NCBI RefSeq assembly: GCF_001941625.1
Contig: NZ_CP016076.1
Location: 620,001 to 684,000, forward strand
Direction: 5' to 3'
Length of the DNA stretch: 64,000 nucleotides
Origin: Actinoalloteichus fjordicus
GTDB taxonomy: Bacteria > Actinomycetota > Actinomycetes > Mycobacteriales > Pseudonocardiaceae
The notes below the pieces were generated by a model. The model was not told the origin of the DNA. It worked only from the letters and a program-made list of their open reading frames with translations, and did no database searches. Made by a program: the position numbers and the translations under genes. Shown piece after piece: positions 55,464 through 62,529 of this stretch (the stretch's first letter is position 1; each line of letters starts with the position of its first letter).

Positions 55464-56102
55464 TCAGGCGTCGAGGTAGGCGATCACCGCGCGGACCCGA
55501 CGGTTGTCGTCCTCCGAGGGGGGCAGACCCAGCTTGCTGAAGATGTTGTTGGTGTGCTTCCCGACCGCGTTCTCGCTGATGAACAGCCGCCCGGCAATCG
55601 CGGCGTTCGACCGTCCCTCGGCCATCAGACCGAGGACCTCCCGTTCGCGCGGCGTCAGCCGTTCCAGCGGCTCGGGCTTGGTGGCCAGCAGCTGCGAGAT
55701 GACCTCGGGGTCCATCGCCGTGCCACCGCCCGCGACCCGGCGGATCGCCTCGACGAACTGGCTCACCTGGGAGACCCGATCCTTGAGCAGGTAGCCCACG
55801 CCGCCGTTGCGGTCCGACATGAGCTCGCGTGCGTAGAGCTGCTCGACGTACTGGGACAGCACCAGCACCGGCAGACCCGGCAACTGACGACGGGCTTCGA
55901 TGGCGGCCCGCAGGCCCTCGTCGGTGAAGGTGGGCGGCATCCGCACGTCGACCACGGCGACGTCGGGTCGATGGGTCACCAGGGCACGCAGCAGCGACGG
56001 ACCATTGTCGACTGCCTCGACGACCTCGAAGTCATAGGCCGTGAGCAGCCGGATCAGGCCCTCTCTGAGCAGAACCAGGTCTTCGCCGAGGACGACACGC
56101 AC
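55464..56102 (-). CDS. LuxR/NarL-family response regulator
   Basis: A 212-residue regulator. The receiver domain has LGEDLVLLREG, the phosphoacceptor Asp in DVAVVDVRMPP and the Lys in GYLLKDRVS. The LuxR HTH is LTPREREVLGLMAEGRSNAA with GKHTNNIFSKLGL. GTG 56102 is chosen because the receiver begins there. It is 82 nt downstream of the kinase gene at 56185 and presumably its partner. Confidence 0.9.
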   Translation of the reverse strand: MRVVLGEDLVLLREGLIRLLTAYDFEVVEAVDNGPSLLRALVTHRPDVAVVDVRMPPTFTDEGLRAAIEARRQLPGLPVLVLSQYVEQLYARELMSDRNGGVGYLLKDRVSQVSQFVEAIRRVAGGGTAMDPEVISQLLATKPEPLERLTPREREVLGLMAEGRSNAAIAGRLFISENAVGKHTNNIFSKLGLPPSEDDNRRVRAVIAYLDA

Positions 56103-56184
56103 ACGGACTCCAGGGTGATGAGAGAACTCGTCCGGGCGCGGGTCCCGGCTGTATCGAGAGTGTTCAGCATGGGCGGACCGGGGG

Positions 56185-57435
56185 TCACTCCGGCACGCAC
56201 GGCAGTTCCATCGACACGATCGTCGGTCCGCCGACGGGGCTGCTGATGTGCATCGTCCCGTCGAAGGCGTTGAGCCTGCGTTCGATCCCGTGCAGCCCGC
56301 CTGCGGAGTCCTGCACGACGCCGCCTCGGCCGTCGTCGCCGACCAGCACACTGAGTGAGCCTCGGACGTGGCGTGCGCGTACCCATGCCTCGGTGGCGCC
56401 GCTGTGCTTCGCAGCATTGGTGAGCACCTCGGCGACCGCGAAGTAGGCGGCCGACTCCACCGGAGCGGGCAGCCTGGCGGGCAGCACGACGTCGACCTGC
56501 ACCTGAAGCGGGCTACCGATGGCGAGGGCCTGGATGCCGCCGGTCAGGCCTCGGTCGGAGAGCACCGGGGGATGGATGCCGCGGACCAGGTCCCGCAGCT
56601 CGGACAGCGCGAGGCTGGTCGACTGGCGGGCCTCGGTGAGCAGCTCCTGCGCGACGGCCGGGTTGTTGGACAGCATCTCCTCGGCCATCCCGAGGCTCAT
56701 TCCCAGCGCCACCAGCCGGGCCTGGGCACCGTCGTGCAGATCCCGCTCGATACGCCGCAGCTCCGCCGCCTGGGTGCCCACGGTCTCGGCGCGGGAGCTG
56801 GCCAGCGCGTCGACCCGCAGCGACAGGCGGGCGCGCTCGCTGATGCCGAGCATGACTGCCGCCAGCCGCGCGTAGCCCACCATCATCTTTGGCGCCAGCC
56901 ACCACCACAGGCCGAAGGAGATCAGCGCGAACACCCAGTACAGCAGGGTGTTCTGGGTGCGGGAGACCTCGACGGGCCCGAGGTACAGGTCGAGAACGCC
57001 CTCGGGGACGATCTGCACCAGGCCCGGCATGATGCCGTAGAAGATCGTGGACGCGAACAGTGCGAGCGACACGAGGGAGATCGCGAACCCGAGGATGGCG
57101 TTGATCCACAGCCAGGCGTAGTCCCGGTAGGTGGCGGGATCGCTGCCGATCACGCGGAGCCTGCTGAACAGGTTGCCCTTCGGGATCGGCCGGTACGGGC
57201 GGATGACCGACGTGCCCAGGATGTGCCCGGCCCAGAGCCGATAGACGTCGTTGTAGCCGCGGATGGAGTAGGCGAATCCCACGACCAGCGGCAGGCCGAC
57301 CGTCAGGACCAGCAGCGCACTGCTCACCGTCATCAACACGATGAGCCCGATGCCCAACAGCGAGTAGACGGTGAAGATGAACGACCAGCCCAACAGCGGA
57401 AGCCGCTTGACTCTCCGTGTGGTCGCGGTGGTCAT
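56185..57435 (-). CDS. Sensor histidine kinase with membrane sensor domain
   Basis: A 416-residue kinase. The N-terminal half is a four-helix membrane sensor (helices near 15-35, 38-55, 115-140, 165-185), of the type common in actinobacterial NarL-partner kinases. The HisKA_3 segment is RRIERDLHDGAQARLVALGM with the phosphoacceptor His. The ATPase part has an N box EVLTNAAKHSGA and G boxes GDDGRGG and GGLHGIERRL. It is followed by its cognate regulator. Stimulus unknown. Confidence 0.92.
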   Translation of the reverse strand: MTTATTRRVKRLPLLGWSFIFTVYSLLGIGLIVLMTVSSALLVLTVGLPLVVGFAYSIRGYNDVYRLWAGHILGTSVIRPYRPIPKGNLFSRLRVIGSDPATYRDYAWLWINAILGFAISLVSLALFASTIFYGIMPGLVQIVPEGVLDLYLGPVEVSRTQNTLLYWVFALISFGLWWWLAPKMMVGYARLAAVMLGISERARLSLRVDALASSRAETVGTQAAELRRIERDLHDGAQARLVALGMSLGMAEEMLSNNPAVAQELLTEARQSTSLALSELRDLVRGIHPPVLSDRGLTGGIQALAIGSPLQVQVDVVLPARLPAPVESAAYFAVAEVLTNAAKHSGATEAWVRARHVRGSLSVLVGDDGRGGVVQDSAGGLHGIERRLNAFDGTMHISSPVGGPTIVSMELPCVPE

Positions 57436-57576: not shown

Positions 57577-60405
57577 TCAGCCGGGCAGGTCGTGATCGCC
57601 CGCGTCGATCAGCATCCTGCGCAGCGTCAGCGTGCGCTGCTGGTCGTCGCATTCGACATAGACCTGCAGGGCCGACCGCCATGCGGACCGTGCCTCCGCC
57701 CGCAGATTCGCCGCGTCCAATGCGAACCCGAGATGCTGGAGCGCCATGCCCTGACCTCGGCGGTCCTCGGTCTGCTGGAACAGCTCGGCGGCCTGTCGGT
57801 GCGCGGGGGCGGCCTCGGTGAACTGCTCGGCCTCCTGGAGCGCGAGCCCCAGGTTGTTCCAGGCGATGCCCTCGCCGTGCCGATCGTCGGTCTCGCGGAA
57901 CAGCGTGGTCGCGCGCTGATGTGCCTCGATGACGTCCTCGGATCGGAGCAGCCGCATGATGCTCAGGCCGAGATTGCTCAGCGTGCGGCCGGTTCGCGAA
58001 CCGCCCGCCGCCGCCTCGTCCGCGTGGTCGACCCGAGGCCCCGACCTGTCTGCCGCCCGATCGGACGAGCCGCTACGGCCGCCCTCGGCCCCGGACATGC
58101 CGTCCTGTTCCTGGTGGCGCAGCTGCCGAAGGGCGACTCCGAGGTTGTTCTGCGCGACGGCCTGTCCGTGTCGGTCCCCGAGTCGTCGATAGAGGTCCAC
58201 GGCGGCCTGGTGGGCGCTGACCGCCTCGGGGAGCTGTCCGATCTCCTGGAGGGCGATGCCGAGGTTGCTCAGGGCGATGCCCTCGGCGTGCCGATCGCCG
58301 GTCTCCCGACAGATCACCAGGTCCAGGCGATGTGCGGCCACCGCCTCCTCGATCCGGGAGAGCCTGCGCAGACAGAGACCGAGATTGCTCAGGGCGAGGC
58401 TCTCGGCAGGGCGGTCGCCCACCTGTCGATAGAGGCTTGCCGCGGCGCGATGTGTCTCGACGGCGTCCTCGAACCGCTGGGACTCCTGGAGGGCGATGCC
58501 GAGGTTGTTCAGTGCCGCCGCCTGTCCACCGGGATCGTCCAGTTCCCGGTAGAGGTCGACGGCCGTCTGGTGGGCGGTCATGGCCTCGTGCAGGTGTCCC
58601 GTCTCCTGCAAGGCGATGCCGAGGTTGCTCAGTGCCACTCCCTCGGCGTCGCGATCCCCGGTCTCCCGACAGATCGCGAGGTCCTGGCGATGTGCGTCGA
58701 CCGCCTCGGGGAAGCGTCGAATCTCCTGGAGCGCGATGCCGAGGTTGTTCAACGCGGTGCCCTCGGCGTGCCGGTCGCCGATGCGGCGACAGATGGCGAG
58801 ATCCTGTTGATGCGCAGCCACGGCCTCCTCGAAGCGCCTCGCCTCCTGGAGGCCGGTGCCCAGGTTGTTCAGCGCAGTACCTTCGGCCCGGCGGTCCCCG
58901 AGGCGGCGGGCGGCGCGGACGGCGGTTTGGTGGGCGGTGATCATGTCGTCGAAGTGCCGCTGGCGGTGCAGGTACCGGGCCAGCCGTAACGGCAGATGCA
59001 GGGCGACCTCGGGATGCGACGGGAGCGCCAGGACCACGGCCGCGAGGAGGTTGCCCCGCTCCTCGTCGAGCCAGCGGCGCGCGGCCTCATGAGTCGGGAA
59101 TCGGGGCGTGGTCGCGGGCGCGCCGTCGAAGTGCGCGGCGGCGGCGTCCGCGGACGTGAGGTAGTGCTGGAGCATTCGCGTGATCGCGAGCGCCCGTTGG
59201 CGTTCGTCCCCGGTTCCGCCCTCGTGATCCCGGAGCTTCTCGGCGGAGTGGAGGCGGATCAGGTCGTGGACTCGCCACCGCCTGCTGCTGGTGCGCTCCA
59301 GCAGATGTGCGCCGACCAGGGCGCGGAGTGCGGTGTGCGTCTGCTGGCGAGGCCGGTCCGCGAGCGCGACGGCGGTGTCCAGTGCGAAGTCGGGTCCGGG
59401 ATTCAGTGCCACGAGGCTCAGAAGGCGGGCCTGGTCGGCGGGCAGCCGATCCCAGGAGAGGTCGAACGCGGTGCGGACGGCGCGGATTCCGTCGGTGAGG
59501 ACGTCCAGTCGAGTGGCGCCGTCACGGAGCTCGTCGACCATGTCCGCCAGGGTGAGGTCTCGCTCGGCGACCAGGATGCCCGCGACGATGCCGAGGGCGA
59601 GCGGCAGCATGTCGCAGAGCCTGATCAGCTCCCGCATCGCTGCGGGCTGGGCATGGGCCCTGGGATCGGCGGACCAGGCCTTGACCATCGTCGCGGACAC
59701 GAGCGCGACGGCGGTCTGCTCGTCGAGCAGACCCAGCCGCAGGTTCTGGTCGGCGACCACGGCGTTCAGCGGCTCGCGAGTCGTGATCAGGACCCGATGC
59801 AGTCGCTCCGCCGGGAGCAGCGCCTCGATCTGCTCCTGGTCCGCGACGTTGTCCAGGATCAGCAGCAGCGCCCTGTTGCGGGTGGCCAGTCTGCCGAGTT
59901 GGCGGTGGTACTGGGCGAACTGGCCCGCCGGAGTCGGGTCGAGGGTGGCCACGCCGATGGCGCGGAGCAGCGGACCGACGAGGTGGTGGGCCAGGACGCG
60001 ACGCGACGCATAGGAGTCGTAGCCGTGCAGGTCCGCGAGCAGCGCACCCGCCGGGAACCACTGCTCGTCCACCGCGATCCTGGCGACATGACGAACGAGC
60101 GCGGTCTTGCCGATCCCGCCCATCCCGGCCACCGCGGAGACAACGGTGGTGGTGACCTGTCGTTCCTGGTCGGGACTCAACGACGAACGCAGGAGCTCGA
60201 CCTCGGCTTCTCGCCCCACGAAGAGGTCCGGCCTGCCCTCTGACAGGCCGCGTAACTGATGCACCACGGCGATCGGCGGAGACTCGACGGAGGTCTCGCC
60301 GATCACGATGTCCCGCTGTGCCTGGTAGACGCGGGATGCGTCATGACCTTCTGCGGAGTACGTCCCGCCGTGATCCGGGTGATCCGGCGGGCGGTTCGAT
60401 GTCAC
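57577..60405 (-). CDS. NB-ARC/STAND NTPase with C-terminal TPR array
   Basis: A 942-residue signal-transduction ATPase. Residues 24-36 carry a short motif SRVYQAQRDIVIG. The NTPase follows, with Walker A GMGGIGKTAL (Lys100), Walker B LLLILDNV, sensor LITTRE and a winged-helix region (LSLVALNPG to VHDLIRLHSAEKL). About ten 40-residue TPRs of kinesin-light-chain type (residues about 500-930, core LNNLGIALQE) complete the protein. One TPR junction is interrupted by a disordered Ser/Gly/Asp segment. No fused effector is recognised. GTG 60405 has only a weak GAAGGG site. STAND proteins act as switch-like sensors; the partner is unknown, and neighbours with the same motif are suggestive. Confidence 0.9.
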   Translation of the reverse strand: MTSNRPPDHPDHGGTYSAEGHDASRVYQAQRDIVIGETSVESPPIAVVHQLRGLSEGRPDLFVGREAEVELLRSSLSPDQERQVTTTVVSAVAGMGGIGKTALVRHVARIAVDEQWFPAGALLADLHGYDSYASRRVLAHHLVGPLLRAIGVATLDPTPAGQFAQYHRQLGRLATRNRALLLILDNVADQEQIEALLPAERLHRVLITTREPLNAVVADQNLRLGLLDEQTAVALVSATMVKAWSADPRAHAQPAAMRELIRLCDMLPLALGIVAGILVAERDLTLADMVDELRDGATRLDVLTDGIRAVRTAFDLSWDRLPADQARLLSLVALNPGPDFALDTAVALADRPRQQTHTALRALVGAHLLERTSSRRWRVHDLIRLHSAEKLRDHEGGTGDERQRALAITRMLQHYLTSADAAAAHFDGAPATTPRFPTHEAARRWLDEERGNLLAAVVLALPSHPEVALHLPLRLARYLHRQRHFDDMITAHQTAVRAARRLGDRRAEGTALNNLGTGLQEARRFEEAVAAHQQDLAICRRIGDRHAEGTALNNLGIALQEIRRFPEAVDAHRQDLAICRETGDRDAEGVALSNLGIALQETGHLHEAMTAHQTAVDLYRELDDPGGQAAALNNLGIALQESQRFEDAVETHRAAASLYRQVGDRPAESLALSNLGLCLRRLSRIEEAVAAHRLDLVICRETGDRHAEGIALSNLGIALQEIGQLPEAVSAHQAAVDLYRRLGDRHGQAVAQNNLGVALRQLRHQEQDGMSGAEGGRSGSSDRAADRSGPRVDHADEAAAGGSRTGRTLSNLGLSIMRLLRSEDVIEAHQRATTLFRETDDRHGEGIAWNNLGLALQEAEQFTEAAPAHRQAAELFQQTEDRRGQGMALQHLGFALDAANLRAEARSAWRSALQVYVECDDQQRTLTLRRMLIDAGDHDLPG
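57710..58930 (-). repeat. Array of about ten 120-bp TPR-coding repeats
   Basis: Near-regular 120-bp repeats encode 40-residue TPRs with a shared core (A-x-G-x-A-L-x-N-L-G-I-A-L-Q-E). GAGGTTGTTC or a close variant recurs on the + strand every 120 bp between about 58140 and 58870. The homogeneity indicates recent duplication or conversion. Confidence 0.8.
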
Positions 60406-60444
60406 GGGGGGCCCTTCACCGGGTCCGATGCTCGTACGGCCGGC

Positions 60445-60609
60445 TCAATCGTCGGTGACGGTCAGGTCACCGACGACTTGAGGGACCGAGCACCCGAGAC
60501 GGAGTTCGGGGGCGGACTCGCGGATCAGACTGCCGACTCGGCGACCCGACTCGGCACGGATTCCCGATGCCAGCGTGCTTCCGGCGGCGGCAGGCGTGGT
60601 GGCGTTCAT
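60445..60609 (-). CDS. Small ORF upstream of the STAND gene
   Basis: A 54-residue ORF starting at ATG 60609 with an excellent CGGAGG site 7 nt upstream, and ending 39 nt before the STAND start. It begins MNATTPAAAGSTLASGIRAE and ends CSVPQVVGDLTVTDD. The C terminus resembles the V-x-Q-x-x-x-D motif of the STAND protein and of the 62101 protein. An in-frame GTG at 60801 would give 118 residues. No family is recognised; a peptide precursor or accessory regulator are both possible. Confidence 0.5.
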   Translation of the reverse strand: MNATTPAAAGSTLASGIRAESGRRVGSLIRESAPELRLGCSVPQVVGDLTVTDD

Positions 60610-60835
60610 TCCAGGACCTCCGGGCGTCGTGACGGATTCGGCAAATCTCGGTGTGTCTAATGCGTGGGTCGCCGGGTTGTCGGAGAAGACGGTTGTGCGG
60701 CAGGCGAGGTGGGGGGAAAGCCGCAGGTTCGGTTGATCGGACAACAGATCAGGGGTGTGCGCGGCTAACGTGTTCAGTGCGGAAGCTTTCAGTGCAGCCA
60801 CCTCCGGTCCTGAGGCGCCTCGCCTGCTTACCCTG

Positions 60836-60864
60836 ATGGAGTAACCGTCGGGCGGGCTTGTCAA
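60836..60864 (-). promoter_or_regulatory. Candidate promoter of the STAND operon
   Basis: On the minus strand a consensus TTGACA (60864-60859) is followed after 17 bp by CTCCAT (60841-60836), a poor -10. It lies in an AT-richer patch. The rest of 60610-61347 shows no other convincing gene. Confidence 0.35.
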
Positions 60865-61347
60865 TATTCGAACGATCCGGCAACGTAGATTGTTCCAAGT
60901 TCGTGGCCGCTTAACCAGAAGCAGTCGTCCGTTCGCTGACACGATCTCGTATCGGTATCGGTCCTGTCGTCGCGCGAAGGATCGCCGACGGCCGCATCGT
61001 CGCAGGTCGATGCAAGTTGATGAACGATCTACGACCTAGGTGCGGATATCGCGGTGGCCGTGGAGCGAGTGTGCAGGAAGTCGTGATCCACGATCGGGTG
61101 AACTCGTGAGATCGCCACCGCGATGATCGTGTTCATCGTCCTTCAGCGGCCCGGACAAGGCCCGACGGCCGAAGCCCGCGACGTCCTAGAAGGGGATCAC
61201 GGCGGCACGCGGCTGGCGCTGAATCGCCTGATTGGGCGCTGACCGGCAGTCGGTCGGCCGCACGTCGGACTAGCGAACCGGTCGGCCCGACCATCCGAGG
61301 AGAGTTGATCCGACGTGTTCGCGACCTGCGTCGTTCCGGTGGAGAAG

Positions 61348-61779
61348 TCAGCGGCGATGAATGGGCTTGACGAACACCGCCAATTCCTGTTCCTCCGGTG
61401 AAATCAGTTCGAACGTTCGATAGAAGGCGCGTGACTTCCGGCCGTCCTCGGTCGATCCTCGATCAGTGGTGAGGAGGAAGGATCGACAGTGCGGGTAGCG
61501 CTCATCGAGATGTTGGAGAAGGGCTCGACCGATGCCCGGCCGCTGGGCGGCGGGTCGCACGAGGAGGTCCTGGACGTAGCAGACGGTCTCGTCGTCCGAG
61601 ACCGTCCTGGCCAGTCCGAGCAGCTCACCCGACTCGTCCCGAGCGGTGATGACGAGAGGAGAGCCGGTCAGGCTCCGGACGAGCTTCGCGAGGTCTCGGG
61701 TATAGGCAGACCAGCCGACGGAGTCGTACAACTCCCCGACCTCAGCGGGGTCGAACGACGTCCTCAGGGAGATGATCAC
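61348..61779 (-). CDS. GNAT-family N-acetyltransferase
   Basis: A 143-residue acetyltransferase. Motif A (acetyl-CoA pyrophosphate binding) is VCYVQDLLVRPAAQRPGIGR followed by ALLQHL, and motif B covers KSRAFYRTFEL. The N terminus (VGELYDSVGWSAYTRD) is typical of small GNATs. GTG 61779 follows CGAGGAGCCGGCGCAG. Substrate unknown. It lies between the STAND gene cluster and the 62101 gene on the same strand. Confidence 0.88.
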   Translation of the reverse strand: MIISLRTSFDPAEVGELYDSVGWSAYTRDLAKLVRSLTGSPLVITARDESGELLGLARTVSDDETVCYVQDLLVRPAAQRPGIGRALLQHLDERYPHCRSFLLTTDRGSTEDGRKSRAFYRTFELISPEEQELAVFVKPIHRR

Positions 61780-62100
61780 CTGCGCCGGCTCCTCGATCAG
61801 CCTGCTGGACGAGGCGACCCTCGCCGCGTGTGGATCGCCCTCACGAGGTGATCACCGCCTTCGTCCGGCGACGGCGACCTGGGCCGGGCGAGTCGATCCT
61901 TGGTGGGACGCGGGGCGCGAGGGCCTGCCGAGGCGAGGCTCACCAGTAGGCGATCCGCAGCGTAGACGCCCACGATCCCGGTGCGCTGCCCAACCTGCCG
62001 TGCTGTCGCCTGCTGATCGAGACGCCGGTGTCCGGCTGGCGCGACAGCCCGCCGTGGCGGCAGGCGGGCGGCGACCCGCACACCGGGACAAATTCCAGGA

Positions 62101-62529
62101 TCACTGCTCGTTGATGGTCATGTCGCCCGCAGACTGATACACCCGGCTGTGATCATGGGAGGTGGCGGTCATCGTGACCTGGCCGATCCGTTGTCGGCGG
62201 CCTGTCGGAACCAACGGCTGCAGACGCTCGTCGAGGAGCAGGCGCAGTTCCGCCTCGACCGTCGGGTCGTCCCTGATCAACCTGGCGAGCTTGCGCTTCC
62301 ACTCGACCGCCAGCTCTGCCATCGTCGCGGCGCCGTCCGAGTCGTTCTGGGGGGCCGCGAGGATCTCGTCTCGGACCTCCACCAGTTCGGCTTCGATGGT
62401 CTGCACGTCGGAAGGGCGGAACCGCCGCCACCAGTTGGTGACCTCGTCTACTGCCTGGCGCCACGAGTCGGCGGCCACCGCGTCGACGATGGCGGTGCCC
62501 GCAGCGGCGGCGACCGTGACCTGATTCAT
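62101..62529 (-). CDS. Hypothetical protein with C-terminal VYQ-type motif
   Basis: A 142-residue protein starting at ATG 62529 behind GAAGGGGACACGAC. Residues 5-20 are Ala-rich and hydrophobic. Residues 22-60 are helical (DSWRQAVDEVTNWWRRFRPS) and 65-105 form acidic helices. The last 15 residues (SRVYQSAGDMTINEQ) match the motif near the N terminus of the STAND protein 1.7 kb away (SRVYQAQRDIVIGET). Similar small proteins with this tail occur beside signalling and conflict genes in actinobacteria. Function unknown. Confidence 0.7.
   Translation of the reverse strand: MNQVTVAAAAGTAIVDAVAADSWRQAVDEVTNWWRRFRPSDVQTIEAELVEVRDEILAAPQNDSDGAATMAELAVEWKRKLARLIRDDPTVEAELRLLLDERLQPLVPTGRRQRIGQVTMTATSHDHSRVYQSAGDMTINEQ

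Follow-up and report, generated by a model that had tools for sequence, protein, structure and literature searches.

A 21-residue motif shared by an NB-ARC/TPR protein and a small helical protein in Actinoalloteichus fjordicus suggests a motif-wired receptor-effector pair

The locus described here lies in a stretch of 64,000 nucleotides from the actinomycete Actinoalloteichus fjordicus (contig NZ_CP016076.1, positions 620,001 to 684,000), which is referred to as the window. Its genes include one for a 942-residue NB-ARC/TPR protein, an NLR-like member of the STAND NTPases that we call the receptor, and one for a 142-residue helical protein that is its candidate effector (Table 1). The two proteins share a short motif, which is found near the N-terminus of the receptor and at the C-terminus of the 142-residue protein. 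An initial annotation, made from the sequence alone, had proposed that these two proteins and a 54-residue open frame upstream of the receptor gene carry one interaction motif. The three stretches are at the stated places, each on the minus strand; the motif itself stands for the receptor and the 142-residue protein, and for the 54-residue frame the resemblance (28 over 13 residues) is, among whole ORFs, within the range of chance.

Table 1. Features of the window locus, followed by loci of relatives of the 142-residue protein in other genomes.
Feature	Position	Strand	Basis
Receptor, 942-residue NB-ARC/TPR (STAND, NLR-like) protein	57577..60405	-	Pfam NB-ARC 2.6e-12, TPR_12 1.2e-46
Receptor-side motif SAEGHDASRVYQAQRDIVIGE, residues 17-37	60295..60357	-	21-residue score 55 against effector tail
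54-residue open frame, judged non-coding	60445..60609	-	Codon-position test; no family matches
Perfect inverted repeat, 11-bp arms, 6-nt loop	60449..60476	.	Three-species alignment, RNA fold, codon-position test
GNAT acetyltransferase, between receptor and effector genes	61348..61779	-	Pfam Acetyltransf_1
Effector candidate, 142-residue protein, five predicted helices (residues 3-106) and disordered tail	62101..62529	-	AlphaFold2
Effector-side motif TATSHDHSRVYQSAGDMTINE, residues 121-141	62107..62169	-	21-residue match with receptor
Non-STAND motif-bearing neighbours	L129:9009-10472, L131:7821-8846, L134:9135-10256, L127:7705-9309		Pfam; apparent membrane helices in some
Helical domain fused to NB-ARC	L144:4496-9088
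Helical domain fused to NB-ARC and a C-terminal CHAT protease-like domain	L146:8662-13635

Aligned without gaps over 21 residues, the receptor and effector segments score 55 (BLOSUM62). The window has 601 other six-frame open reading frames (ORFs) of at least 60 residues (89,931 residues in all), and none of them scores above 29; among 5000 shuffles of the first 75 residues of the receptor the highest score is 35. With 13 residues the margin is smaller (42, against 31 for the window ORFs and 40 for the top shuffle), so it is the longer match, which extends beyond the pattern of the initial annotation, that is convincing. The DNA form of the pattern [VIM]YQxx[GRA]D has five matches in the 7.12-Mb genome and the reversed control pattern has none. 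Two of the five are in the receptor and effector genes, 1.8 kb apart, two are in seemingly unrelated proteins and one is in a second STAND protein.

The 142-residue protein is predicted by AlphaFold2 to be a five-helix bundle with the motif on a disordered C-terminal tail. Predictions from one-sequence and nine-sequence inputs agree on helices at residues 3-19, 23-37, 39-58, 64-87 and 90-106, with block means of the predicted local distance difference test (pLDDT) of 74-95 for the body and 40-50 for the tail. The protein is present in all three genomes of the genus set, which comprises the source genome and two congeners (G076 and G043), with identities of 85% and 73% in the congeners. Of 200 genomes of the same family, 20 have a relative (E<=0.001), six of the 20 being weak (E about 1e-4), and of 394 genomes of the same class 49 do (E<=1e-5), the source genome being counted in each set. 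There is no convincing match to the 142-residue protein in Pfam, PADLOC or NCBIfam.

The receptor is also present in both congeners, together with its N-terminal motif. In PADLOC (2023 database) it matches a generic TPR model only (E 2.1e-34). The setting of the pair is common to the three species, with a sensor-kinase/response-regulator pair on one side and a 146-residue protein on the other; the names of these flanking genes were read from the sequence, without a family search. In tblastn searches the congeners yield only C-terminal remnants of the GNAT acetyltransferase, its last 39 and 66 residues, so the receptor and effector have been kept while the gene that separates them decays. The GNAT gene is probably a passenger. 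The sensor-kinase and response-regulator genes, at 55464-57435, lie directly downstream of the receptor gene and occupy the same place in both congeners.

The loci of helical-family relatives (L124, L125, L127-L131, L134, L136 and L140-L155 among them, the last series being class-level) were used to ask what lies beside the effector gene. The initial annotation had expected motif proteins beside STAND genes in other genomes, and they were found there. For most relatives with a YQ tail, a large ORF beside the gene bears a matching motif near its N-terminus, and in many it is directly adjacent. The paired motifs covary, for example IIQLGQGTQSI with VIQLGQGTQHI in L124 and VYMSGRDQHIT with IYMSGRDQYIN in L125. 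Since choosing a neighbour by its motif match would bias the partners, for each of 51 family members the next ORF on the same strand was picked solely by its position. The mean tail-to-neighbour score was 31.9, against 21.5 for the other combinations, a difference reached in 0 of 20000 permutations. Manual removal of seven near copies (L028, L029, L033, L034, L036, L041 and L042; 44 members left) gave 31.5 against 21.2, again with 0 of 20000. A biased selection, the 22 pairs that score at least 30, has 8 in which the own partner takes first place, and the median rank of the own partner is 3. The pair in L148 is probably due to chance. Many class-level relatives (L140-L155) end in other tails, such as SGGVQHGPVIQAG, and lack a matching next gene; these may act on unlinked receptors.

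Twenty-eight partners were scanned with Pfam, ten of them as N-terminal parts only. They were picked for carrying the motif and include the near copies L032/L033/L034 and L037/L041/L042; the frameshifted L036 partner was left out. STAND NTPases make up 20 of the 28: 13 are nSTAND1 proteins, several with WD40 repeats, six contain NB-ARC and one NACHT. One further partner matches AAA_16 only (L128). In L136 the receptor is encoded upstream of the effector. Both genomes with an NB-ARC fusion of the helical domain (L144 and L146) belong to one genus. The initial annotation had seen the motif as a tag that brings three components together. A short tag that links a STAND NTPase with a small partner is well supported by the covariation of neighbours, the prevalence of STAND partners and the fusions; the three-component idea is not, because the 54-residue frame has no visible coding constraint.

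Motif-wired receptor-effector pairs have been described in bacteria, where they are known mainly through sequence analysis, as presented in the cited part of a 2021 review (PMC7889193). In BASS/BELL pairs, which have NLR-associated bacterial amyloid signalling motifs (Dyrka et al. 2020, J Mol Biol), the motif is on the N-terminus of an NLR and on the C-terminus of a small helical BELL protein encoded by an adjacent gene; the same source describes ten BASS motif families, considers that more are likely to exist, and mentions CHAT and TIR proteins that bear such motifs (PMC7889193). The window pair resembles these pairs in the placement of the motif on the receptor N-terminus and the C-terminus of a small helical protein, in the proximity of the two genes, in having a STAND receptor and in its actinomycete host (PMC7889193, PMC8086366, as far as these texts describe them), and the L146 fusion bears a CHAT domain as do some partners mentioned there. 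It differs in that the window genes are 1.7 kb apart, some partners of the relatives are not STAND proteins, and the effector domain is at most remotely like BASS3-type domains; the motif has been placed in none of the classes BASS1-10, of which the analysis covered one published BASS3 peptide. With that peptide (PMC8086366) as the query, BASS3-type proteins were found in 6 of the 394 class genomes at E<=0.05.

Eight domains were used for comparison, five with BASS3-like tails and three from relatives with other tails; we infer that the authors would class them as BELL domains. With tails removed, a profile of the 49-sequence helical family aligns end to end with them at scores of 24.2-28.0 and probabilities of 26-42%. 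At the setting that gave 28.0, 200 column shuffles reached at most 16.9 and the reversed control 11.2. A comparison with smaller profiles gave no match. Two BASS3-type effectors are followed by genes (L171:799-1497 and L172:1885-2574) that bear the motif; these encode short proteins, which have an apparent membrane segment and are not NLRs.

The fungal pairs NWD2/HET-S and PNT1/HELLP are similar in having a motif at the receptor N-terminus and a helical effector with a disordered C-terminal motif, and PNT1 combines NB-ARC with TPR, as the window receptor does (both as described in PMC7889193). The 142-residue protein has no match to the Pfam HET-S, HeLo or RHIM models at E<=1; the RHIM model is an insensitive one, which gave E values of no better than 0.07 and 0.28 for two of three BASS3-type proteins scanned.

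We consider it rather probable that the receptor and the 142-residue protein work as an NLR-type receptor and its effector, wired by a short homotypic motif of the BASS/BELL kind. The pairing is what the data establish, through the 21-residue motif, its placement, the conservation of both genes in the genus, the way in which the motifs of adjacent genes covary in relatives, and the NB-ARC fusions in two genomes. The layout matches that of BASS/BELL pairs, and we therefore propose receptor oligomerisation, cross-beta templating and effector action by analogy with these and with the fungal NWD2/HET-S pair; that the tag forms beta structure is plausible by such precedent. The TPR repeats would sense a trigger and the NB-ARC domain would then oligomerise. 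The N-terminal motifs gathered in this way could nucleate a cross-beta (amyloid-like) template, onto which the disordered tail of the effector would be templated. The clustered helical bundles would then act, most likely at the membrane, and the outcome would probably be cell arrest or death, plausibly as a defence against phage. The output of bacterial motif-wired pairs was still open in the 2021 review, in the part cited (PMC7889193).

Several observations weigh against this interpretation. The receptor and effector genes are non-adjacent in the window and in the congeners; in the window they are about 1.7 kb apart, with the GNAT gene between them. In the next-ORF adjacency test the window and the two congeners score 16, 26 and 11; they fail it since in each of them another ORF than the receptor comes next. 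Fifteen of the 16 members in L140-L155 score below 30, having other tails (such as HGPVIQAG) or no matching next gene, or being fusions. Seven of the 28 scanned partners are not STAND proteins: one has MgtE_N with a weak FliG match (L129), one TPR only (L130), and five have no family (L127, L131, L134, L158 and L159). The receptor and the 142-residue protein match no known defence system in PADLOC (2023 database). The similarity of the helical family to BASS3-type effector domains may reflect remote homology, and is suggestive only. The first helix of the effector is only mildly hydrophobic (top 19-residue Kyte-Doolittle mean 1.37, compared with 1.23 in one BASS3-type domain), so a role at the membrane is a guess.

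The common segment could instead be a stoichiometric docking peptide, acting through ordered beta-augmentation or a shared third protein rather than as an amyloid template, with the receptor and effector still cooperating. The evidence for pairing is silent on fibres and AlphaFold leaves the tail disordered, both of which suit a docking peptide; in position and length the motif agrees with BASS motifs, of which several reportedly gave prions when expressed in a fungus (PMC7889193), and we regard simple docking as unlikely. It is quite improbable that the receptor is a regulator, or an accessory of a ribosomally synthesised and post-translationally modified peptide (RiPP) pathway, with a motif that merely couples it to a modulator. 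Its top NCBIfam matches are indeed HaaT (361 bits) and AfsR (253 bits), NB-ARC-TPR proteins with homologous NB-ARC and TPR regions. These scores are far below the equivalog cut-offs of 1125 and 1430 bits, the region matched is the shared NB-ARC/TPR part, and the motif-matched partners of the relatives span several STAND classes.

An alternative that retains the 54-residue frame would have all three frames carry the tag, with the small protein as an adaptor or decoy peptide that bears a third copy. In its favour, all three species keep the frame open, with identical residues just before the final codon. When the comparison is confined to the C-terminal 30 residues, it is one of two among 729 window ORFs, itself included, at its score, so its resemblance by position is not trivial. 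Over whole ORFs its score of 28 against the effector tail is within chance, the top window ORFs scoring 31, 29, 29, 28 and 28 (a list that includes it). Differences between the source genome and G076 fall evenly over the codon positions of the frame (6/6/7), with 12 non-synonymous and 6 synonymous codons; the same comparison gives 14/13/46 for the 142-residue gene and 3/8/27 for the first 120 codons of the receptor. The initial annotation had made conservation of the frame a condition; the stretch is kept as DNA and not as a protein, and the end that is conserved forms a perfect inverted repeat. We therefore reject the 54-residue frame as a third motif protein and hold a tag in all three frames to be very improbable.

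The inverted repeat lies about 45 bp before the receptor start, and the rejected third motif is its protein reading. It falls within 31 nt that are identical across the three species and contain TCGTCGGTGAC-CTGACC-GTCACCGACG(A). There are 11 perfect pairs in the source genome, and 10 bp with a possible U-G pair in the congeners. The hairpin folds inside the leader, which as a whole is not exceptionally stable (z -1.79, RNA fold). It is likely to be a cis element before the receptor gene (a terminator, attenuator or operator), and would form part of the control of receptor expression. Further upstream of the leader, the DNA at about 60720-60965 is strikingly conserved in the three species, beyond what is expected of a spacer. 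No Rfam match or sigma-70-like promoter was found in this region, which is likely to be regulatory.

The second STAND protein in the genome is a 1337-residue open frame (L047, G000:C1:4325664) with the pattern near its N-terminus, in EIYQSLGDQYIAE. The N-terminal part of this frame is nSTAND1 (E 4.9e-120). Compared over 13 residues with the effector tail its motif scores 36, and with the motif of the window receptor 23. No gene of the helical family was found in the 18 kb around it (L179, G000:C1:4318000-4336000). With the narrower pattern no counterpart of this motif was seen in G076, and G043 has one further match. With one match to go by, it is a guess that the protein may serve the 142-residue effector as an orphan receptor. 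It is possible, if doubtful, that the YQ tag and helical domain form a module that lies outside BASS1-10 and provides actinomycetes with a general homotypic adaptor, its sensors being exchangeable. These sensors would include NB-ARC, NACHT and nSTAND1 proteins as well as non-STAND proteins with MgtE_N/FliG-like repeats and predicted membrane proteins, and an unlinked nSTAND1 receptor (EIYQSLGDQYIAE) that shares a single effector would make the network branched.

The pair looks like a further example of an amyloid-signalling kind that has already been described. Its locus is compact and kept in three genomes of the genus, and it has many relatives with covarying motifs. These relatives supply cognate and non-cognate peptide pairs with which the specificity of templating can be probed, and the fusions are natural controls. 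The same genome offers a possible second receptor for one effector. Through the covarying pairs, the fusions, the non-STAND partners and the second receptor, the templating hypothesis is open to direct tests, and if the non-STAND partners are real, this motif language would extend past the NLRs.

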